Shown piece by piece: positions 1,807 to 56,256 of a DNA stretch of 64,000 nt (its first letter is position 1; every line of letters starts with the position of its first letter). The position numbers and the translations under genes are program-made. Origin of the DNA: Cyanobacterium aponinum PCC 10605 (GTDB lineage: Bacteria; Cyanobacteriota; Cyanobacteriia; Cyanobacteriales; Cyanobacteriaceae); contig NC_019776.1 of assembly GCF_000317675.1 (NCBI RefSeq), positions 2,108,001-2,172,000 of the forward strand, written 5' to 3'. Under the pieces are notes generated by a model. That model had not been told where the DNA came from, made no database searches, and worked only from the letters and a program-made list of their open reading frames with translations.

Positions 1807-1984
1807 TTTTTGGCTTTCTCACTTTGAGTATATAAATTGTTGCTTAGGAAAGGTGTCAGGTTAAATAAAAATGTTAATTTATAACGATTTTATTTTTGAA
1901 ATAATTAAAACCATAGCTATCAAAGTTCCTGTTAATTATTTTCTGTTAATTTATCATAACTACTGTATAAAAGCTGATTTTGCT

Positions 1985-5756: not shown

Positions 5757-5803
5757 TCACTTAATTTTATAAAAGCTATAATTTTTATGCAAATTACCAT
5801 AAA

Positions 5804-6361
5804 CTAAAATAAAATGCGATCAAGTTTTACGGTGATAGTTTCTGGTTGAGTTAAAGTAATAGAATCTTGAGAAGAAAGTTTTTTGATATTTTGATAATAG
5901 TTTGTCTGAGGATTTTGATATACTTCTAATAAGTTTTGATTGAGATCAACTAACCACACTTCTTGTACTTTATTTTCTGCATAAATGGGAATTTTAAAAG
6001 TGCGATCGTATTCTATACTACTATCCGCCACTTCAATTAATAAAAAAATATCTTCAACGGTAGGATGCTGATTTGCATAAAAATCATGACGAGGTTTTAA
6101 TAAAACAATATCGGGTTGTGGTTCTGAATTATCATTAAGTTTAATCGGATCTTGTACCCCAATGATCACTTTTGAACCTAATTTTTCCGCAAATAAATAA
6201 TTAATTTTTTTGACACAAGATGCGTGTCTAAATCCCACTGGTGACATTTCAAAAATTTCCCCATTAATTAACTCAATTAAATAATCTTCTTTCAATACTC
6301 CTGAAGCTATTATTTGATGATATTCTTCAAGGGCAAATTTTTTCCGAGGTAAAGTTAACAT
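5804..6361 (-). CDS. Uma2-family (DUF820) putative endonuclease, tandem copy A
   Basis: The 185-residue protein has the Uma2 PD-(D/E)XK-like core: EPQPDIVLLKPR (about 77-88), then LLIEVADSSIEYDRTFKIPIYA, with the catalytic-type Asp and Glu present. EVWLVDL forms the next strand. The family is hugely expanded in cyanobacteria and its role is unclear. Copy B lies 60 bp upstream (6421-6978) and is nearly identical in nucleotide sequence, except for a central patch. The pair probably arose by a recent tandem duplication followed by local recombination. Confidence 0.9.
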   Translation of the reverse strand: MLTLPRKKFALEEYHQIIASGVLKEDYLIELINGEIFEMSPVGFRHASCVKKINYLFAEKLGSKVIIGVQDPIKLNDNSEPQPDIVLLKPRHDFYANQHPTVEDIFLLIEVADSSIEYDRTFKIPIYAENKVQEVWLVDLNQNLLEVYQNPQTNYYQNIKKLSSQDSITLTQPETITVKLDRILF

Positions 6362-6420
6362 ATTCTTCTATTTCGACTGATTTCAATATAATATTTTTCA
6401 TTCAATCAAATTACCATAAA

Positions 6421-6978
6421 CTAAAACAAAATGCGATCGAGTTTTACGGCGATAGTTTCTGGTTGAGTTAAAGTAATAGAATCTTGAGAAGAAAGTTTTT
6501 TGATACTTTGATAATAATTTGTCTGAGGATTTTGATATACTTCTAATAAGTTTTGATTGAGATCAACTAACCACACTTCTTGTACTTTATTTTCTGCATA
6601 AATGGGAATTTTAAAAGTGCGATCATATTCTATACTACTATCCGCCACTTCAATTAATAAGAAAATATCTTCAACGGTAGGATGCTGATTTGCATAAAAA
6701 TCATGACGAGGTTTTAATAAAACAATATCGGGTTGTGGTTCTGAATTATCATTAAGTTTAATGGGATTTTGAATGCTAATAATAGCTTTATTTCCTAATT
6801 TTAAACTTAGTAATTGATTTAATTTATTTACGCAAGATGCGTGTCTAAATCCCACTGGTGACATTTCAAAAATTTCCCCATTAATTAACTCAATTAAATA
6901 GTCTTCTTTCAATACTCCCGATGCGATTATTTGATGATATTCTTCAATGGCAAATTTCTTGCGAGGTAAAGTTAACAT
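6421..6978 (-). CDS. Uma2-family (DUF820) putative endonuclease, tandem copy B
   Basis: This 185-residue sister of copy A has the same start and stop context, and even similar 3' flanks (AAATTACCATAAACTAAAA before each stop). The two proteins match almost perfectly over residues 1-50 and 75-185. Residues about 51-73 differ heavily (VNKLNQLLSLKLGNKAIISI here against VKKINYLFAEKLGSKVIIGV in copy A). The nuclease-fold Asp and Glu (PDIVLLKPR, LLIEVADSS) are intact. Confidence 0.9.
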   Translation of the reverse strand: MLTLPRKKFAIEEYHQIIASGVLKEDYLIELINGEIFEMSPVGFRHASCVNKLNQLLSLKLGNKAIISIQNPIKLNDNSEPQPDIVLLKPRHDFYANQHPTVEDIFLLIEVADSSIEYDRTFKIPIYAENKVQEVWLVDLNQNLLEVYQNPQTNYYQSIKKLSSQDSITLTQPETIAVKLDRILF

Positions 6979-11518: not shown

Positions 11519-11555
11519 TCATTCTCAAAAATGTCAAGTTTTGAAACTAACAAAT

Positions 11556-11762
11556 AACCTCAGTTCGGTTTAAGAATATCTGATAAGGTTAGGTGTCAGG
11601 TGTCAGGTTGCAGGTTGCAGGTGGTAGGGGTTTTTAGCAAGGGGCTTAAGCCCCTTGTTTAAGTCAGTTCGGATTAAGGCAATTTTATCGTTATTTCTAA
11701 GAAACCATAAGGTTTTCTGACTGCGAGTTGGGATGCTTTCAGCTTATCCAAAACTCAGGTTA
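11556..11762 (+). mobile_element. R1-R2 composite miniature element, TA-flanked
   Basis: It begins at TA (11555-11556) followed by ACCTCAGTTCGGTTTAAG (module R1) and a heptamer tail (11591-11623). A perfect palindrome CAAGGGGCTTAAGCCCCTTG lies at 11638-11657. The ~100 bp module R2 (11662-11760) ends in AACTCAGGT, followed by TA at 11761-11762. The outer ends are imperfect inverted repeats, and TA on both sides suggests a TA target duplication. No ORF is present. Confidence 0.65.
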
Positions 11763-11980
11763 ACAAATAGTAACAGATACCTTAAGGGGGGACAATAACT
11801 CTAAAAACCTTATAGGTAGCAGGTAGCAGGTGTTAGGTTTTGTCTCCACTAATATTTATCATTATCTCTATTTACTCAATGGTTCAAATAATAGGCAAAA
11901 CTATTGGATTATCAACATTTTGAGATAATATGTCTGGCTATTTATTTCGTAAATACAAAACACTATTCATGTATTTAAAA

Positions 11981-34210: not shown

Positions 34211-34550
34211 TCTATAAAAATGAATAATTAACCTCAGTTCGGTTTAAGAATATCTGATAAGGTTAGGTGTCAGGTTGCAGGTGTTAGAGTGATGAGAGGA
34301 TGAGAGAGAGAAGTAGGGGCTTGGGGTTTTGGGGTATAACCTCAGTTCGGGTTAAGACAATTTTATTATTATTTCTAAGAAGAAGCTATAAGGTTTTCTG
34401 ACCACAGGATAATGCTTTCAGCTTATCCAAAACTCAGGTTAATTAATAATTAGGGATTGATGAAAAAGTGGTGTCGCCGAGGATAAGCAATTTCGCATCT
34501 GGAAAGAGGCAACAGTTCAAATTCCTTACTCTCTCACCATAATTATATTT
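34211..34550. other. Spacer filled by a composite miniature element
   Basis: Almost the whole 340 bp is the R1-R2 composite (34230-34441) plus flanking filler including ATTAGGGATTGATGAAAAAG, which also occurs at about 17144-17163. No gene was found. Confidence 0.6.
34230..34441 (+). mobile_element. R1-R2 composite miniature element, TA-flanked
   Basis: TA (34229-34230) precedes ACCTCAGTTCGGTTTAAG (R1) with a short heptamer tail. A second TA then precedes R2 (34339-34439), whose ends ACCTCAGTTCGGGTTAAG and, inverted, ACCTGAGTTTTGGATAAG match at 14 of 18 positions. TA follows at 34440-34441. This is the clearest R2 copy for judging the inverted ends. Confidence 0.7.
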
Positions 34551-35009: not shown

Positions 35010-35054
35010 CAGACTATTTTTTGAGAGATTTTAGTATTTTTAAGTAATATTGTA

Positions 35055-35246
35055 GGTTCTTCAGAGTGTGGTTATGATAAATTAATAAAAAATAACTTCC
35101 ATAACCTTTATTGAATAGTGTTTATAGTAAAATAAAAATTAAAAGTTTATAAATTATTAATTGTTTAATAATCCCCTATTGCCTATTGCCTCTTGCCTCT
35201 TGCCTACCAAACACTAATAATTTACACGACGAGAAGTGATAGAGCC
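35055..35246 (+). mobile_element. Miniature ISL3-like element, copy A (192 bp)
   Basis: The ends are GGTTCTTCAGAGTGTGG at left and, inverted, GGCTCTATCACTTCTCG at right. A perfect 8-bp target duplication ATATTGTA flanks it (35047-35054 and 35247-35254). The body has no ORF. It includes TTATTGAATAGTGTTTATAG and a tract of 7-bp TTGCCTN units near 35177. Ends beginning GGYTCT and 8-bp duplications are known for the ISL3 family; no transposase is in the window. Confidence 0.88.
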
Positions 35247-35263
35247 ATATTGTATTTTTAAAA

Positions 35264-37300: not shown

Positions 37301-38158
37301 ATGACCATTAGACCCCGAAAACAGTTTGGACAACACTGGTTAAAAAGTCAAAAAGCCTTAGATACAATAATTTTTTCTGCTGAGTTAAATAAAAGTAATC
37401 CCCAAACTGGTACTCAGGGCGATCGCATTTTAGAAATAGGACCGGGTACAGGGGTTTTAACAAAAAGATTATTACCCTTAGTTGACAAATTATTGGCAGT
37501 GGAAATTGATCGGGATTTATGTAAAAAATTAGTAAATGACTATGGAAAAACAGATAATTTTCTCTTGTTAGAAGGAGATTTTTTAGAGTTAAATTTACCA
37601 GAAATTTTACAACCTTTTCCTGATTTTTTAGCTTACAACAAAGTGGTTGCGAATATACCTTATAATATCACAGGTCCTATTATCGAAAAACTTTTAGGCA
37701 CTATTAGTAAACCTGCAGAAAAACAATTAGATGCGATCGTTTTATTAATTCAGAAAGAAGTAGGGGAAAGACTTACAGCAGAGCCGAATAATAAAGTTTA
37801 TGGGGCGCTAACCCTAAAAGTGCAATATTTAGCAGACTGTGAAATAGTTTGTACTGTTCCAGCTAGGGACTTTTATCCTCCGCCAAAAGTTGATTCTGTA
37901 GTAGTAAAAATAACGCCTCGAAATCTAGTTAATCCTGCTAAAAATCCAGCTTTTTTAGACAGTTTAATTAAATTAGGTTTTTCTAGTAGAAGAAAGATGC
38001 TGAAAAATAATTTAAAATCTTTAATTTCTCCTGAAAAATTAAATGACACTTTAGAAAAACTTAATCTCAATCCTCACGCTCGTGCAGAAAATTTAAGTCT
38101 TGAAGAATGGATAAATTTAAGTAATTATCTAACCTCAGTTGGGTTTAAGAATATCTGA
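37301..38158 (+). CDS. rsmA: 16S rRNA dimethyladenosine transferase RsmA/KsgA
   Basis: The 285-residue methyltransferase has KQFGQHWLKSQKALDTI at the N-terminus, the SAM motif ILEIGPGTGVLT and the target-base motif NIPYNITGPIIEKLL. The C-terminal helical domain runs to LSNYL. It dimethylates two adjacent adenosines of 16S rRNA. The last eight codons (TSVGFKNI) and the TGA stop are supplied by the dispersed R1 repeat that begins at 38131, so the native C-terminus was rewritten by a repeat insertion. A GTG one codon upstream is an alternative start. Confidence 0.95.
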   Translation: MTIRPRKQFGQHWLKSQKALDTIIFSAELNKSNPQTGTQGDRILEIGPGTGVLTKRLLPLVDKLLAVEIDRDLCKKLVNDYGKTDNFLLLEGDFLELNLPEILQPFPDFLAYNKVVANIPYNITGPIIEKLLGTISKPAEKQLDAIVLLIQKEVGERLTAEPNNKVYGALTLKVQYLADCEIVCTVPARDFYPPPKVDSVVVKITPRNLVNPAKNPAFLDSLIKLGFSSRRKMLKNNLKSLISPEKLNDTLEKLNLNPHARAENLSLEEWINLSNYLTSVGFKNI

Positions 38159-38426
38159 TAAGGTTAGGTGTCAGGTTGCAGGTTACAGGTGGTAGTGGAT
38201 GGGGGGATGAGGTGATGAGGGGAAAGGGGGAAGTAGGGGCGAATGGCCATTCGCCCGTACAGGTATTCGTGGTTTTTCATTCTTAATTCTTAATTTTTAA
38301 TTCTTAATTCTTAACTATTTAACGTCAGTTCGAGTTAAGGGAATTTTATCGTTATTTCTAAGAAGAAGCTATAAGGTTTTCTGACTAGGAGAAAATAATG
38401 CTTTCAGCTTATCCAAAACTCAGGTA
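38131..38426 (+). mobile_element. R1-R2 composite element fused to the 3' end of rsmA
   Basis: It starts at TA (38130-38131) inside the rsmA reading frame. R1 carries a heptamer tail (38166-38201), a G-rich stretch and the palindrome GGGCGAATGGCCATTCGCCC (38237-38256). AT filler and R2 (38322-38424) follow, ending CAGG with TA at 38425-38426. This is the longest composite in the window and the only one that overlaps a gene. The ISL3-like copy B begins only 18 bp further right. Confidence 0.7.
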
Positions 38427-38444
38427 ATTGTTATAAGTTAATAT

Positions 38445-38617
38445 GGTTCTTCTATAGTGGTTATGATAAATTAAGAGAAACAGGACTTCCATAACCTTTA
38501 TTGAATAGTATTTATAGTAAAACAAAAACTAAAAGTTTATAAATTATTATTTAATAATCCCCTATTGCCTCTTGCCTACCCTAACTAATAATTTACACGA
38601 CGAGAAGTGATAGAGCC
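38445..38617 (+). mobile_element. Miniature ISL3-like element, copy B (173 bp)
   Basis: The ends are GGTTCTTCTATAGTGG and, inverted, GGCTCTATCACTTCTCG. A perfect 8-bp target duplication GTTAATAT flanks it (38437-38444 and 38618-38625). The body is colinear with copy A, with a shorter TTGCCT tract. Confidence 0.88.
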
Positions 38618-38680
38618 GTTAATATTTATTATTTTTATTCTTTAACCGTCAAACCTGCCACCTACCACCTGACACCTTTT

Positions 38681-38718
38681 CCTAACCAATAATTTACACG
38701 ACGAGCAGTAAGAGAGCC
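38681..38718 (+). repeat. Right-end fragment of the ISL3-like element
   Basis: CCTAACCAATAATTTACACG followed by ACGAGCAGTAAGAGAGCC matches only the last ~38 bp of copies A and B. No left end or target duplication was found, so it is a truncated remnant. Confidence 0.65.
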
Positions 38719-42186: not shown

Positions 42187-42517
42187 CCATTAAATAATCA
42201 GCAAAAATTGAAAATAAATTTGGTTCTTCTACAGTGGTTATGATAGATTAGTAGAAAATAACTTCCACACCCTTTATTGAATAGTGTTTATAGCTAAGAT
42301 AAAAACTAAAAGTTCATAAATTATTATTTAATAATCCCCCATTGCCTCTTGCCTTTCAGCCTACCCTAACTAATAATTTACATACTCAAACTGATAGAGC
42401 CATAAATTTTTCCCACTTTAGCTCATTATTTCTCGCTTCTTACCTAATACAACCCAAAAACCTCATCTTAAACAGCTAAGTGAGCTTAATTTTTTAATTA
42501 AAAATAACTAATCTCTG
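42187..42517. other. Spacer occupied by an ISL3-like miniature element
   Basis: Of 331 bases, 180 are copy C of the ISL3-like element and the rest is AT-rich filler. No gene was seen. Confidence 0.6.
42222..42401 (+). mobile_element. Miniature ISL3-like element, copy C (180 bp)
   Basis: The left end is GGTTCTTCTACAGTGG; the right end, inverted, is GGCTCTATCAGTTTGAG. A perfect 8-bp target duplication ATAAATTT flanks it (42214-42221 and 42402-42409). Its subterminal right part (CATACTCAAACTGA) differs from copies A and B but resembles copy D, so at least two sequence subtypes exist. Confidence 0.88.
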
Positions 42518-45549: not shown

Positions 45550-45920
45550 TTTTAGTTCAATGTGAAAATATAAGCGGTAGGTAATTAGTAATTAACCTGA
45601 GTTTTGGATAAGCTGAAAGCGTTATTTTCTCGTAGTCAGAAAACCTTATAGTTTCTTAGAAATAAGAATAAAATTGCCTTAACCCGAACTGACGTTAAAT
45701 AGTTAAGAATTAAGAATTAAAAATGAAAAACCACAAATACTTACTAAATACTTACTACTTATTTATTACTTGTTTCCCCCTTTCCCCTCATCACCTCATC
45801 ACTTCATCCCCCCATCCCCTAACACCTGAAACCTGACACCCACTTCCCTGACATCACTTTTTTATCAACCCCCATTAATAGTTACCATAAAGAATGAACA
45901 CAAAATCAAGGCTAACTATA
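45550..45920. other. Spacer before glpK with an inverted R2 element
   Basis: It holds the inverted R2 copy (45593-45697), AT filler (TTAAGAATTAAGAATTAAAA), C-rich filler and a short heptamer stretch (about 45826-45845). The frame of glpK is open to 45894, but no other gene was found. Confidence 0.6.
45593..45697 (-). mobile_element. R2 miniature element alone, inverted, TA-flanked
   Basis: TA (45593-45594) is followed by ACCTGAGTTTTGGATAAG and the element ends in CCGAACTGACGT, with TA at 45696-45697. The 101-bp body is colinear with the other R2 copies. This copy has no R1 module attached, showing that R2 is a separate unit. Confidence 0.7.
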
Positions 45921-49998: not shown

Positions 49999-50077
49999 AT
50001 TTCTTCACAATAAATAATTTCTTTTCTATTTTAGTGGAGATAGGAAAAAGAAAAGAGAGAAGAGACAAGAGTGCGAA

Positions 50078-50249
50078 AGCTCTATTGCTTTGAGTCTGTC
50101 AATTATTGGTTAGGGTGGGCAACAGGCAATAGGCAATTATTAAATAATAATTTATCAACTTTTAGTTTTTATTTTACTATAAACACTATTCAATAAAGGT
50201 TATAGAAGTTGTGTTCTATTAATTTATCATAACCACACTTTGAAGAGCC
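50078..50249 (-). mobile_element. Miniature ISL3-like element, copy D (172 bp, inverted)
   Basis: On the minus strand the left end is GGCTCTTCAAAGTGTGG, and the body matches copies A-C. The other end has decayed to AGCTCTATTGCTTTGAG. Flanking octamers AGTGCGAA and AGTGTTAA agree at six of eight positions, so the target duplication is probably degraded. It looks older than A-C. Confidence 0.75.
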
Positions 50250-50382
50250 AGTGTTAATATCTAACATTGTAATAAAAAAACCAGAGCTACGAAAAGCATC
50301 TAATCTATTAAGATACAACTAATATGCTACCGATAATAAATAATATGTTACTGTACAGGTTTTAATTTTCATGAAAAAACTC

Positions 50383-50412
50383 AGAGAATGCGGACGGAGA
50401 GACTCGAACTCT
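50383..50412 (+). repeat. Left attachment-site repeat (tRNA-Leu 3' fragment)
   Basis: The 30 bases are identical to 56171-56200 and contain the acceptor and T-arm 3' half of tRNA-Leu(UAG) on the minus strand. The rest of the tRNA is absent here, so this is an attachment-site duplication and not a gene. The identity includes six bases beyond the tRNA 3' end. Confidence 0.9.
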
Positions 50413-50523
50413 AGTTAATTTATATTAATGTTTATTTTTCAATGATTATCGGCAATTTAAAATTAACTCTAACTTACTAAATATCAAGGTTTTAAGTGAT
50501 TTGTTGAAAAATTGTTGAAAAAT

Positions 50524-51936
50524 ATGGGAAAAGATTATCAAGGTTATAACGATATACTTGAATACTTTAAATATATCAAGTCTCAAATGCCTAAAGGTAT
50601 ATCACTGTTTAAACGTGGTAATAAGTTATATTTTTTATTCAAAACACAATACAAAAAAAGATCTGATCATGCCACTGGAGAAAATTTTACGACTTTAGGA
50701 TTAAACCGTTGCTTAGAAAAAGCAATCCAAATTAATGAACAATTAAAGGGTTATGAGTCAGAAATAGAGTTTTGGGCTTGGTATGATGAAACCATCAAGG
50801 GAATAAATCAAAACGCTACTAATGACCTTATAACCGTTGCTAATGCCATCAATAAAGTTGAATCATGGTTTTTCAGTCAAAATGATCGGCGTGGCTTACA
50901 ACGTAGTAAAGAAACTGACTATAAAAGCTATAAACGAGCTTATGGTTATTATTATCAAAAAATACATAATCAAGAGAAACAAGTATCTTATGAATTGTTA
51001 TATGACTCTTTAATTAGCTATGAGTCAGATAGAGAAACACAAAAATATCAAGAATGTTTAAATGCTTTTCTTAAACTATGTGAAGTCAATCAACTAAAAA
51101 CAATTTATAACAAATTAAGCAAATTAAAACTAAAAACTAATGCAAAGAAAAAAAATACATTTAATCGTGAAGAACAATCAATTAGTATTGAAGATTTTTT
51201 AAAATTAAGAGTTGCTGTATTATCTATTAAAGATAGTCATTCATTAAGGGAAAATAATCGTAAATTTTGGTTATGGGTTTATTCTATTCAGTTGGTTTAT
51301 GGTTTAAGAATAGCTGAGGTAGCGGCTATTAAAAACTTAACTAGAGACTATATTCCAGCAAATGATCCTCAAGAAAATAGTAAGGATAAAACCATATTTA
51401 AAGCATTAAATAATCCTGATAATAAAGATAATATAATTTATATTGGTAATTTCACTTTATGGGGTAATCAAAAAGTAAAAACAGGAGCTAGAATTGCTAT
51501 GCCATTAATACCCCCTACCTATCCAAATATTATTGATTTATTAGAGATTAAGAATGTACCTAACTTTTATCATAAAAGTTTTAATATTTACTCAAGAAAT
51601 GCTAATCAAAGAATAGAACAATGGTCAACTAAATTTTTAGGCTATAAAGTATCACAAACACACACTTTAAGAAAATTAGGTAATGCTAATGGTATCCAAG
51701 CAGGTATTAGTGACACCGTTCGTTGTAAATCTTTAGGACATTCTGAAACGGTTAATGCCAAATACTATCAAGATTTCTCAGGTCAAACAACTATAGATTT
51801 ATACAAAAATGCGAAACGTAATCCGATCCCCTTTGAAACTGCGTTAAAACTCTTAGATGATTTGCCAACTAATCCCAAAAAAGAAGATTTAATAAAACTT
51901 CTTTGTCAGATTTATCAACTACAGTATCCTGATTAA
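50524..51936 (+). CDS. Tyrosine recombinase (integrase)
   Basis: The roughly 470-residue protein carries the tyrosine recombinase catalytic set. Box I Arg is in LVYGLRIAEVAAIK, the second cluster is HTLRKLGNANG (His and Arg), the third His is in KSLGHSETVNAKYYQDF, and the nucleophile is a Tyr in KYYQ. The long N-terminal part (about 1-250) would bind arm and core sites. The ATG at 50524 follows TTGTTG alternatives. It lies about 110 bp inside the left attachment repeat, so it is the likely integrase of this element. Confidence 0.88.
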   Translation: MGKDYQGYNDILEYFKYIKSQMPKGISLFKRGNKLYFLFKTQYKKRSDHATGENFTTLGLNRCLEKAIQINEQLKGYESEIEFWAWYDETIKGINQNATNDLITVANAINKVESWFFSQNDRRGLQRSKETDYKSYKRAYGYYYQKIHNQEKQVSYELLYDSLISYESDRETQKYQECLNAFLKLCEVNQLKTIYNKLSKLKLKTNAKKKNTFNREEQSISIEDFLKLRVAVLSIKDSHSLRENNRKFWLWVYSIQLVYGLRIAEVAAIKNLTRDYIPANDPQENSKDKTIFKALNNPDNKDNIIYIGNFTLWGNQKVKTGARIAMPLIPPTYPNIIDLLEIKNVPNFYHKSFNIYSRNANQRIEQWSTKFLGYKVSQTHTLRKLGNANGIQAGISDTVRCKSLGHSETVNAKYYQDFSGQTTIDLYKNAKRNPIPFETALKLLDDLPTNPKKEDLIKLLCQIYQLQYPD

Positions 51937-52281
51937 TTATTGTCACATATAAATCTAAAATACTTATTGCATAAATATGTAGTTAAAATGAAATGTAAAC
52001 ATAAACTTTCATCTTCAAATGAAGAAAAAGGATCATATTCTGTCTAAAATCCTCTACTTTATCTACGATTACGTTGTAATAATACCTTAAACCTTTATTA
52101 TATAAGCATTCCAAAAAGTAGAGGTAAAAGTAGAGGTCAAAAAAAAGAAATACTTAAAACCCTTATTATCAAAGAGTTAAAAGCATCTTTTTTAAAAGTA
52201 GAGGATTCATCTACTTTTAGTTTTTAGGTTAATTCTTAGTCACTATGTTTCAATACTTTGTAAGTATATATTTTAAGCGAG
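51937..52281. other. Non-coding region with AAAGTAGAGG repeats
   Basis: The 345 bp between the converging integrase and replication genes have no ORF. They hold a cluster of the decamer AAAGTAGAGG in both orientations; see the separate entry. Confidence 0.6.
52051..52219. repeat. Cluster of AAAGTAGAGG decamers, left side of element
   Basis: Inverted copy CCTCTACTTT lies at 52051-52060. Direct copies AAAGTAGAGG lie at 52115-52124, 52127-52136 and 52195-52204, and a variant AAAAGTAGATG appears inverted at 52209-52219. The same motif clusters again at 55843-56045. Candidate roles are iterons or arm-type recombinase sites. Confidence 0.75.
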
Positions 52282-52734
52282 TTACATTACCTTGATTTTG
52301 ATACCCTTTTTAGTCGGTATTTGTTGGGCTTTACTTAATTCCACTAAGGATAATAGCAACTCGTTAATATCACCATTAGGAACGCTCTTAAACTCCCAAA
52401 TAAACCGTTTTACATCCGTGCTAGTAATCTCACCTTTTTTCTTTAACAACTCAAAGATTTTTAACAATTGACTGTTAAGCATACCCTCTTGACATTTAGT
52501 CACGATATAAGCAAAAATCATAGAACGGATAATAAAAGGCACAATATAACGAGTATTAGGATTAACAATGATTCTTGATCTTGTACCGATAACCGATGCT
52601 AAAACAGGTAAAAGTATCGTGACTATAGCATCTGGATTAGTAGGAATTTCTTTAGCTGATTCTTTAATATATTCTGCCAAATAATCCCCAAAAATATAGT
52701 TTAAATCTAATGACTCATGGGGAACATTAATCAA
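52282..52734 (-). pseudogene. C-terminal remnant of a DUF3987-type replication protein
   Basis: The 150-residue frame begins in the middle of a family. Residues about 10-50 (LAEYIKESAKEIPTNPDAIV then LPVLASVIGTRSRIIVNPNT) resemble the start of DUF3987 helicase-like domains. The expected P-loop segment is missing. The frame passes directly to a C-terminal winged-helix-like part (SQLLKIFELLKKKGEITSTD). It is in the same reading frame as the primase gene at 52816 and separated from it by one TGA. The region is likely an internal-deletion remnant, not a free-standing gene. Confidence 0.65.
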
Positions 52735-52815
52735 ATCATCTAAATTAGATTTTACATTCTCTAATTCAATGGTTTTATTTACCCGTTCTATTTTGGCATT
52801 AATCGCTGTAACCAG

Positions 52816-53850
52816 TCAGCTAGGGGCTACTTTATATTGTGTGCAGAATTGACCTATTTCTAAGAATCTTTGTGACTCATTAATCTCAGGTTGTGCTAAC
52901 TTATTTACTAATTGTTCAAACAAAAAAGGAACGTTATTTTCATTAATATCGTTCCCAGATTTTTCATAAGTTTTAGACAGTATTTTGACATTTCTTTTGA
53001 GGTTCTCTCTCATCCATTGAGACTGATTAAAACCATTATTTTTTGCAAGGTAAAATAATGTACCTATCCCTACTTTATAACCCTTTTTAAAACTATCCCA
53101 TTTTTTCTCTATTCCCTTGCCATCATATTTAGCACTGGTAGCACTCCATTTATCCCAAATATCAAAATCAACTCCATGATTGTACAATGCCATACCCACT
53201 GTTACCCATTGATGGTAGTCATCACTAAGAATATGAGATAAAGCGGTTTCAATTAATCTCAATTCATCTTGAGGAGATAAGTCATTATCCTTGATGAAAA
53301 TTAAACAGGTATTGAGTAAATCATAAGACTCTTGAAAAGATAGACAACGGGGGGAGATTTCCTTAATCCACTTATAATAACCTGTTTCAGGGTGAACAGA
53401 GGGGGGTAAGACACTCGCACAACCTTTATAGCGTATTTCAAGATGATCGCCATTGATAGCAGAATAGTTTTTATATTTGGTTAAGTCATATTTGCTGATA
53501 TGTTGCCATAGAGCTAAGTGTTCAGTGGGTATCTGATATGCAATCTGATAATGACCTTTTTTGCCACTTGACCAACACATACTATCTTGATTGAGTAACC
53601 ATGAACCAATAGCTTTAGCTACTTGATCCGCACTATCACCATCAAAGTCTATGGAAACAATACCTACTCCATTAAATTCACCTGTTAACAATCCATAGCC
53701 ATTAGGTTTACCGATTTTTAATTGTTTTTGGCAATAGTCATAAGATTTACCTTTTTGCCATGATTTTTCATAGTATTCTTTATCACGACATACAGCAAAA
53801 CGATCTGAACTAAAAAGCTCAGTTAGGGAAAAACTGTTATTTTTTGTCAT
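52816..53850 (-). CDS. Primase-polymerase/PriCT-type replication protein, truncated by an in-frame TGA
   Basis: The 344-residue protein resembles the N-terminal prim-pol region of plasmid replication proteins. YGLLTGEFNGVGIVSIDFDG (about 52-71) carries an acidic catalytic-type motif, and SSGKKGHYQIAY and HLEIRYKGCASVLPPSVHPE fit the family. A PriCT-2-like domain follows (YHQWVTVGMALYNHG, then WDKWSATSAKYDGKGIEKKW). The frame ends at TGA (52816-52818) but continues open into 52282, so the original protein was longer. Likely role: replication initiation for the element. Confidence 0.75.
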   Translation of the reverse strand: MTKNNSFSLTELFSSDRFAVCRDKEYYEKSWQKGKSYDYCQKQLKIGKPNGYGLLTGEFNGVGIVSIDFDGDSADQVAKAIGSWLLNQDSMCWSSGKKGHYQIAYQIPTEHLALWQHISKYDLTKYKNYSAINGDHLEIRYKGCASVLPPSVHPETGYYKWIKEISPRCLSFQESYDLLNTCLIFIKDNDLSPQDELRLIETALSHILSDDYHQWVTVGMALYNHGVDFDIWDKWSATSAKYDGKGIEKKWDSFKKGYKVGIGTLFYLAKNNGFNQSQWMRENLKRNVKILSKTYEKSGNDINENNVPFLFEQLVNKLAQPEINESQRFLEIGQFCTQYKVAPS

Positions 53851-54027
53851 ATAATTAAATTAATTAATTTTTTAATTGAATTAATTGAAAGTAGTTAGAT
53901 ACTTTCAAAAACTAAGTAATCACACGGTTTTGGGGTGTACCGCAAACACCTTCTGGTTTTTTTGTAATGTCCTTTCAGGTAGGAATTGAAAGGATGTTTT
54001 TAATATAACAAAAAAACAGTCATAAGA

Positions 54028-54447
54028 TTATAATAATCTATGCCTTTTAAATCTTAGATTATTTTCCGCAGATATAAACTTAATTAAGATTGATACTACT
54101 TTTTCAAAACCGTATTTTTCAATCATTTCAGGATATTCATGCCATTTAACATTTTCTTCTTCAAGAATTTTATCGGGTTCAATATCCTCATCTTGATAGT
54201 AAGAGTCCCATAAATCATATAAAAAATCATCAACGGCTAATCTTAACCAATTACAATCAGAAACAGAATAATAGGCAAGAGATAATAAATTCAAATCATT
54301 TTCAATAGAATTAACAAAGTGGTTTAATGCTCTCTCTAAAAATTCTGTTCTTTTAATGTTATGCTTTTTGCAAAAATCATCCATTTTGATTAAGTCTTCT
54401 TCTTTAAAATAAGTCGTGACTCTTTTTTTTATTCTTTGCTCTTTCAT
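54028..54447 (-). CDS. Ribbon-helix-helix-like regulatory protein of the element
   Basis: The 139-residue protein starts with basic MKEQRIKKRVTTYFKEEDLI followed by FCKKHNIKRTEFLERALNHF, a beta-helix-helix pattern typical of RHH DNA-binding proteins. The acidic C-terminal half is of unknown role. It lies one base downstream of the 54449-54739 gene, which suggests translational coupling. It probably controls replication or partition of the element. Confidence 0.65.
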   Translation of the reverse strand: MKEQRIKKRVTTYFKEEDLIKMDDFCKKHNIKRTEFLERALNHFVNSIENDLNLLSLAYYSVSDCNWLRLAVDDFLYDLWDSYYQDEDIEPDKILEEENVKWHEYPEMIEKYGFEKVVSILIKFISAENNLRFKRHRLL

Positions 54448-54448
54448 T

Positions 54449-54739
54449 TTAAATCTCTTTAATTAAATCTTTTAAATCTTTGATTAGTTGACTAGCAGAA
54501 TTACTCTTATAGCCTTTTTCTTTATTATCAATTTTATTTGCTATTTCAATTAAAAACTTTTGTACACTCCGATTATTATTATGATTATCAGAACTTAAAC
54601 ATAGATCTAATTGTTGTGCATAAGCTAATATTTTATCCTCAAATATTACTGGTATTCTTATTGCTTTTGTTGGGGTATTTTTCCATTTTGTCGGTTGTCC
54701 TCCTTGCTTAAGATTCTTAAGACTATTTAAACTAACCAT
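54449..54739 (-). CDS. Small plasmid-type DNA-binding protein
   Basis: The 96-residue protein has PTKAIRIPVIFEDKILAYAQ near residue 23, a motif I associate with small regulators common on cyanobacterial plasmids. A Lys-rich helical tail (LIKDLKDLIKEI) follows. It is the first gene of the minus-strand cluster. A repeat TTTGTACACTCCGATT occurs twice upstream of it and once inside its coding region, suggesting autoregulation or an origin. Confidence 0.6.
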   Translation of the reverse strand: MVSLNSLKNLKQGGQPTKWKNTPTKAIRIPVIFEDKILAYAQQLDLCLSSDNHNNNRSVQKFLIEIANKIDNKEKGYKSNSASQLIKDLKDLIKEI

Positions 54740-54741
54740 AA

Positions 54742-54830
54742 ATTTTTGTACACTCCGATTATACTTTTTTATCTAGTCCCCTAAGTATAACATATTTATT
54801 GACCAAAAATACTTGTACATTCCGATTTTA
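54742..54830. repeat. TTGTACA-TCCGATT direct repeats
   Basis: TTGTACACTCCGATT occurs near 54746 and TTGTACATTCCGATT near 54813, with a third TTGTACACTCCGATT inside the upstream gene near 54560. The copies lie around the start of the minus-strand cluster, fitting operators or iterons. Confidence 0.65.
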
Positions 54831-55842
54831 AGTAGTGTGCTTACTTTATAAGTTTAATTACTGTAATTATTGTAGTGATTTTTTCCTAATATATATACGT
54901 TTATTTGCGATTATTACATAATAATATTTTGATTAATCCTGAAGGTATTGAAAGGGCAAAATAAGTCCTTCTAGGTGTCTTAAATTGAATATTTATTTTT
55001 CGTATTTATAATTTGTTGGTACTCTCATCAAAGTATTTCAAAGACATGCAACCATAAATTACTTTGTTTCGTGCTTCAATAATTCATACTTCATTGAGTT
55101 TCTGGAAGTGATTAAGTAAAAATTCTTGTAATTTTCTCTAATCTTCTGGCGGTGAAAAATACCTCAAGAGCTTTTGGATTTTGCAGAATTTTCTCCTCAG
55201 CTTCTTTTTTCCTTGAAAACAACCATTAAATATCCCTATGTTAGTTGCTCTGAAAAGTTTTCAAGTAATCAGTTTTCCGTTATCGCTCGATATAGACCTA
55301 TATTTAAGGTCTGTCAATGAAACGGTTTAGAAATTGCCTCAAAAAGTGCAATAGAAACGAAGAAAAAAGGTAAGAGGGATTATTCACTTTTCTCTAAGAT
55401 TTCAGATGAATTTGAAAGATATGGTACAGAACAGCATAAATAGTGATTCAGTCGGTGAGAAGGCTTTTTGAGGAGTTCTCTTTTGCTCCACCGTTCGTTA
55501 GCGAGCTATATTTAAGGTCGCCAAATGAATTGTTTAATTAGCTTGAGTGAGCTAAAGTCCTGAAATCATTAAAAATTAAGGGTGATCACTCTTTCTTTTT
55601 TCTCGGAGAAGATGAAAGGTGGAAACAAAAAGAAAGAAATTAGACAAGTGCAAATCTAGCCCACAGCCTTCGCACTTATTTTGGGATGTGATTGAACCAG
55701 AACTAACTAAAACGAGTTTGGATTAATAACCTAGAATTGACGAGATTATAATCCTGTCAAAATGGAAACCGTCAAAACAGAAACGTGTTGCCAATAATAA
55801 AAAACAAAACCCGTTTCGGATTTAGTGGTAATGAATAAAAAT

Positions 55843-56045
55843 TCTCTACTTTCATCTACTCAATCCTCTACTTTTTAGCTTTTGTTTAAATGCTTATAAA
55901 ATATAAGTTTATAAATAGCTATATAAGTATTATTCTACTTTTCCTCTACTTTTAATCTACAAGCATTGATATATTTATATTTGACAATGTATTATTATTT
56001 TCTGAAAGGTTGTTTTGTCGTTATTTTTTTATTAAAAGTAGATGG
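55843..56045. repeat. Cluster of AAAGTAGAGG decamers, right side of element
   Basis: Copies in the CTCTACTTT orientation lie near 55843, 55865 and 55943, with shorter TCTACTTT variants at 55853 and 55934. One AAAAGTAGATGG lies at about 56034. With the cluster at 52051-52219 this gives about ten copies in both orientations, all within the integrated element. Confidence 0.7.
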
Positions 56046-56176
56046 TTTACGTTTATTTTCATGTAACTTGTCACAAGTATCTTAATGTTTTTTAACTATT
56101 GAAGAATAATTGAAAAAAACTAATTAATATAAAAGAAAGTTTCTGAAACGATGAAGAGAAAAGAAACCTAGAGAAT

Positions 56177-56256
56177 GCGGACGGAGAGACTCGAACTCTC
56201 ACATCAGAGATACTAGAACCTAAATCTAGCGCGTCTACCAATTCCGCCACGTCCGC
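56177..56256 (-). tRNA. tRNA-Leu (anticodon UAG)
   Basis: The 80-nt cloverleaf starts GCGGACGTGGCGGAATTGGT. The anticodon arm is CTAGATTTAGGTTCTAG (loop TTTAGGT, anticodon TAG). There is a long variable arm as in class II tRNAs, the T-arm GAGAGTTCGAGTCTCTC and acceptor CGTCCGC plus A. CCA is not encoded. Its 3' end is the right attachment repeat of the integrated element, and the gene is intact. Confidence 0.95.

Follow-up and report, generated by a model that had tools for sequence, protein, structure and literature searches.

The window analysed here is a 64,000-nucleotide stretch of the genome of Cyanobacterium aponinum PCC 10605. Between an ORF of 152 residues with no Pfam match on one side and a RibD-like gene on the other, it contains a 192-bp element (copy A; positions 35055 to 35246, plus strand), which we assign to the non-autonomous ISL3-type elements, or MITEs, on grounds developed below. 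The octamer ATATTGTA was read directly both upstream (35047 to 35054) and downstream (35247 to 35254) of the element, confirming that copy A is a transposon copy bordered by an 8-bp target duplication, as the original prediction had claimed. The element begins with GGTTCTTCAG and ends, read inverted, with GGCTCTATCA. The terminal inverted repeat is imperfect, the very ends having only GGYTCT in common and agreeing poorly beyond. Heptad repeats (CTATTGC/CTCTTGC), variable in number, are present inside the element (35175 to 35207) and inside other copies. The body was said to contain no ORF; indeed, the longest closed ORF of copy A has 18 codons for amino acids.

Related copies and empty sites

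Copies B (38445 to 38617; 38437 to 38625 with duplications) and C (42222 to 42401; 42214 to 42409 with duplications), both on the plus strand, are flanked on both sides by GTTAATAT and ATAAATTT, respectively, in agreement with the claim that their octamers are perfect and different. Copy D (50078 to 50249, minus strand; 50070 to 50257 with octamers) is bordered by imperfect octamers that agree at 6 of 8 positions (AGTGCGAA and AGTGTTAA). The four predicted copies were thus all found, but the window holds more than four traces of the family, because it also contains a doubtful, diverged candidate (1812 to 1975, minus strand), with 4 and 3 mismatches at its ends and octamers agreeing at 5 of 8 positions, and an isolated right end (38696 to 38718, plus strand; pattern match) that belongs to a related subfamily and has no left end of its own, apparently a truncated copy.

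The sister genome G001 belongs to the same genus and is 90-96% identical to the source genome over long aligned blocks. The site of copy A is empty in this genome, the two flanks meeting with an 8-base overlap that corresponds to a single ATATTGTA. The site of copy C is also empty, with an 8-base overlap and one octamer. Clean empty sites were therefore obtained for two of the four window copies. For copy B, no alignment to the sister genome was obtained for the segment 38136 to 38718 taken as a whole. For copy D, the alignment of the left flank stops at the element, and that of the right flank lacks the first 70 bases. Copies of the family were found in the sister genome and in genomes G006 and G008, and in each case the best copy (L031, L032, and L033, respectively) is flanked by a perfect octamer on either side, as read by eye. 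Pattern searches of wider genome contigs, in which near records may be left out, returned one stretch with the left end, in Geminocystis sp. GBBB08, and none with the right end. The element had no match in plasmids and phages.

The window contains other repeats. A further repeat family, whose ends are TTAACCTSAGTT and AACTCAGGTTA, is represented at 34230 to 34443, with related repeats at 11555 to 11778, 38130 to 38443, and 45581 to 45730 (minus strand). Copies of this family are nested within some of the ISL3-type elements, and its heptads (GTCAGGT) resemble those described above. It is probably another MITE family. The repeat at 34230 to 34443 is absent from the sister genome, where its flanks lie two bases apart; a 4-bp duplication was considered for this family and rejected, since the flanks show this gap and no overlap. 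Elsewhere in the window, the 3' end of a tRNA-Leu gene (56176 to 56256, minus strand) is repeated at 50374 to 50412. The interval delimited by these repeats (50374 to 56256) contains a primase gene with Prim-Pol and PriCT_2 domains (52816 to 53850) and an ORF of 474 codons for which no Pfam or PHROG family scored above the cut-off. It gave no alignment with the syntenic region of the sister genome and looks like a small element integrated at the tRNA gene. A 300-base direct repeat (5759 to 6058 and 6376 to 6675; 93% identity) lies over two minus-strand ORFs of 185 residues and looks like a tandem gene duplication.

Copy number and target duplications across the genome

The source genome consists of two contigs totaling 4,176,973 bases, of which contig C1 accounts for 4,114,099. 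BLAST with the element gave at least 45 matches in this genome, including partial ones (40 of 323 first-look candidates were scored). Pattern searches detected 77 right ends of one type and 102 left ends (100 among the matches listed); when both right-end types and as many as 3 mismatches were allowed, 170 right ends were detected (100 among the matches listed). The reversed patterns used as controls for the three end searches gave 0, 1, and 2 matches. Paired elements were drawn from stretches around 217 listed ends, amounting to about 535 kb of the 4.18 Mb; one of the 77 right ends, located on contig C2, was left out. The 107 pairings of a left and a right end separated by less than 900 bp were reduced to 102 by keeping one right end per left end: four left ends had several candidate right ends, and five surplus pairings were removed, the one with the best octamer being retained.

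The original prediction proposed a genome-wide search for copies with an 8-bp flanking duplication. Among the at least 102 paired elements of these stretches, 64 have a perfect duplication, 14 agree at 7 of 8 positions, and 24 at fewer (5 at 6, 9 at 5, 5 at 4, 4 at 3, and 1 at 1). Perfect agreement was found in only 0.39% of 10,302 mispaired octamers used as a control, indicating that the perfect octamers are not due to chance. Agreement never extended over 9 bases (0/102). The 64 perfect duplications comprise 54 different octamers. They are rich in A and T: of the 64, 47 begin with A and 50 have T as their sixth base. The elements at C1:2853652 and C1:3431418 have the same octamer and similar flanks (39 of 40 bases on each side) and represent a duplicated segment; at most 63 of the perfect duplications are therefore independent. 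In all remaining pairs of the 102, the flanks are identical at fewer than 30 of 40 bases.

The family has the short, multi-copy, transposase-free character of a MITE. The median length of the paired elements is 187 bp, and the longest ORF of the 93 copies not exceeding 232 bp has a median of 17 and a maximum of 43 residues. Terminal inverted repeats are present but imperfect, and are longer in copy L033 of genome G008, as read by eye.

Median pairwise identity among the 93 copies of 120-232 bp is 0.83. Identity to the nearest neighbor has a median of 0.96 for the 61 copies with perfect octamers versus 0.925 for the 32 copies with imperfect ones, as expected if duplications decay. Certain copies, such as copy A and the copy at C1:3482414, are free of mismatches over their aligned columns when gaps are disregarded and yet differ in their octamers, which suggests that the family spread relatively recently. 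The ends fall into two left types (TTCAGAGTGTGG and TTCTACAGTGG) and two right types (CACGACGAGAAGTG and CATACTCAAAGTG). All four combinations occur among the 66 copies with up to two mismatches per end (28, 15, 10, and 13), and also when the count is restricted to the 50 whose octamers are perfect (22, 12, 7, and 9). Either the transposase accepted both types or copies recombined.

Four 187-bp copies (C1:1575104, 2644531, 2785038, and 3645711) form a subfamily that is 98-99.5% identical, with the left end TTCTACAGTTGCTATGGTAAA and a perfect octamer proper to each copy; the body differs from that of the main family in the three copies whose bodies were read. A 773-bp copy (C1:4029923-4030695) has a perfect 8-bp duplication (AAATAGTG) and encloses nested repeats along with what by eye is part of a gene for a four-helix-bundle-like protein; it may have captured this fragment. 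It was considered as the remnant of an autonomous element and rejected, since by eye the insert consists of nested repeats and the gene fragment, with no transposase.

Relationship to ISL3 elements

Genome G010, from the same family as the source genome, harbors an internally deleted ISL3 insertion sequence of 823 bp (L131:2089-2911) flanked on both sides by the 8-bp duplication ATAATTAA and retaining two transposase pieces that match PF14690 and PF01610. Its ends, GGCTCTTCTACAGTAGTTATGATAAATC and GGCTCTTCTACAGTGAGTATGACAAATT, are nearly those of the MITE family. The first 27 bases are identical (27/27) to the end of a copy of the source genome (C1:3147315) that has the perfect duplication ATCTTTCT. 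Comparison of this insertion sequence with the 102 paired elements produced 62 matches, all of them terminal: 38 at one end and 24 at the other. No relation was seen between its body and that of the MITEs.

Similar ends were found in ISL3 elements of other relatives. In a set of 30 ISL3 loci, similar ends together with a perfect 8-bp duplication were obtained for 15; for another 11, the octamers at the ends agreed at 1 to 6 of 8 positions, and for 4 no ends were identified. In a second set of 35 loci, only ends with a perfect duplication were kept, leaving 18 rows that represent 17 distinct loci, as L199 repeats L111; because the rows were selected for it, the duplication is a criterion in this set and not a result. 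The ends of the 18 rows matched the family end consensus at 14-24 of 28 positions in single comparisons and at 15-24 when the better of four comparisons was taken, the highest values being those of L128, L111, and L101. Of 20,000 random tails taken from the same loci and placed behind a fixed GGCTCT, 22 reached 20 or more matches and 229 reached at least 18. A 68% identical transposase, annotated as an 'ISL3 family transposase', is encoded by a Nostoc plasmid (NZ_CP091914.1) within an element that has an 8-bp duplication. The ends expected of an ISL3-derived MITE, those of ISL3-family elements, were thus found together with the 8-bp duplication. The ISL3 link proposed in the original prediction is supported by the ends of the G010 insertion sequence, the 27/27 match, and the 15 of 30 relatives' loci with a perfect duplication.

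The prediction also called for a complete ISL3 transposase gene with the same ends. The source genome had no match to the PF01610 profile, and neither had G001 nor G006. A protein search with a 407-residue ISL3 transposase (E up to 1) gave no match in these three genomes and fragments in G005, G008, and G010. Neither genome examined from the genus, that is, the source genome and G001, shows an ISL3 gene, and PF01610 had a match in 73 of the 149 genomes in the search of relatives. The DNA of the G010 insertion sequence had at least two matches in the source genome, both at ends (the best two of 157 candidates). An ISL3 element with nearly the same ends was thus found in deleted form in G010, and no transposase gene with these ends was found in the source genome. 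A helper in the same genome is usual for a MITE, although not required; as no ISL3 transposase was found there, the helper would have been lost or would reside elsewhere.

Proposed origin, alternatives, and known systems

The most probable explanation, to which we assign a probability of about 0.9, is that the family is a MITE of the ISL3 kind, consisting of ISL3 ends around a non-coding body and moved in trans by a helper not found in the genome. The ends, the duplications, the copy number, the two empty sites, and the ends in common with an ISL3 element of the same family were observed; the transposition chemistry and the ISL3 identity of the lost or absent helper are inferred. The element would retain only the terminal sequences recognized by an ISL3-family transposase (GGYTCTTC followed by the inner sequence TTATGATAAATT). 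A transposase supplied in trans would bind both ends and insert the element at a staggered 8-base cut in the target, and repair would then generate the duplication. The helper would be an ISL3 transposase since lost from the genome or located on a replicon outside the assembly. Several findings stand against this explanation: the failure to find an ISL3 transposase in the source genome, G001, or G006, the 11 and 4 of 30 ISL3 loci without matching octamers or without ends, a body unlike that of the G010 insertion sequence, the weak inverted repeat of copy A, and copies B and D without a clean empty site.

Some 100 copies, certain of them nearly identical, in a genus of which neither of the two genomes examined shows an ISL3 gene could indicate that the helper arrives for short periods with plasmids or phages, to be lost time and again, or that a transposase of an unrelated family now moves the ISL3 ends; we regard this as unlikely. 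If true, the free mixing of end types, two on the left and two on the right, would reflect relaxed recognition. The same presence of near-identical copies without a detected ISL3 transposase is the argument for a MITE mobilized by a transposase outside ISL3 that likewise generates 8-bp duplications, such as those of the IS1595 family, which make duplications of this size. Since the ends match those of ISL3 elements, one of them from the same family at 27/27 bases, and the IS1595 DDE domain (PF12762), which represented the rival families in the search, had no match in the source genome, this origin is very unlikely. Spread by segmental duplication or gene conversion has in its favor the pair C1:2853652/C1:3431418, with its common flanks and octamer, and the mixing of end types in four combinations among 66 copies, which recombination could yield; but this is the only flank-similar pair of the 102 and two sites are cleanly empty in G001, which together contradict duplication as the main route and leave it scarcely credible.

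The copies could alternatively be structured RNAs or regulatory repeats kept for their function rather than transposons. They are mostly intergenic, with 3 of 92 placed copies overlapping an ORF of at least 100 residues; the ORFs around the 82 copies flanked on both sides are in tandem for 39, convergent for 31, and divergent for 12. At its seven positions, a short stem (GGTTATG/CATAACC) forms pairs in 75-94% of the 93 copies, and RNAalifold gave a consensus of 34 pairs (-16.5 kcal/mol) for 17 chosen copies. None of the 34 predicted pairs is changed on both sides, although most pairs are invariant, so that this says little either way. Copy A does not fold clearly better than its shuffles (z of -0.63 and -1.67 for plus- and minus-strand RNA and -0.66 for DNA), 25 copies have average z values of -1.03 and -0.41 (mononucleotide shuffles), and a tRNA is the only hit to Rfam over the whole window. 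The octamer duplications and the empty sites also speak against this reading, and the duplications contradict a structured RNA as the sole explanation, making it extremely improbable; an RNA role may have been acquired secondarily by the element.

Among the papers listed in our literature search, made largely outside the subscription literature, we recognized none that describes this family. The ISL3-type MITE reading adds a large, documented family beyond Microcystis, supported by two empty sites that are exact to the base in a sister genome, and suggests that a MITE family can outlast the helper gene in its genome. Cyanobacterial ISL3 insertion sequences (for example, L111, 1419 bp with a 407-residue transposase, and the one on NZ_CP091914.1) have similar ends and 8-bp duplications but, unlike the MITEs, encode a transposase. 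The deleted insertion sequence of G010 has nearly identical ends and an 8-bp duplication but keeps transposase pieces, and its body does not match.

The closest precedent is the MITE of Microcystis aeruginosa PCC 7806, described as a 187-nt element without transposase, with imperfect inverted ends and 8-nt direct repeats, tied to ISL3 transposases by common ends beginning with GGCTCTTCG and present in 31 identical copies in one genome and 33 in another, with ISL3 elements having matching ends in the genome (PMC11448079). The present family differs in its roughly 100 diverged copies (median identity of 0.83 in 93), in the lack of a detected ISL3 gene, and in the base that follows GGYTCTTC. Both are cyanobacterial and transposase-free, with a length of 187 bp (the median here), imperfect inverted ends, 8-bp repeats, and ISL3-like ends, and on these features the present family is another of that kind.
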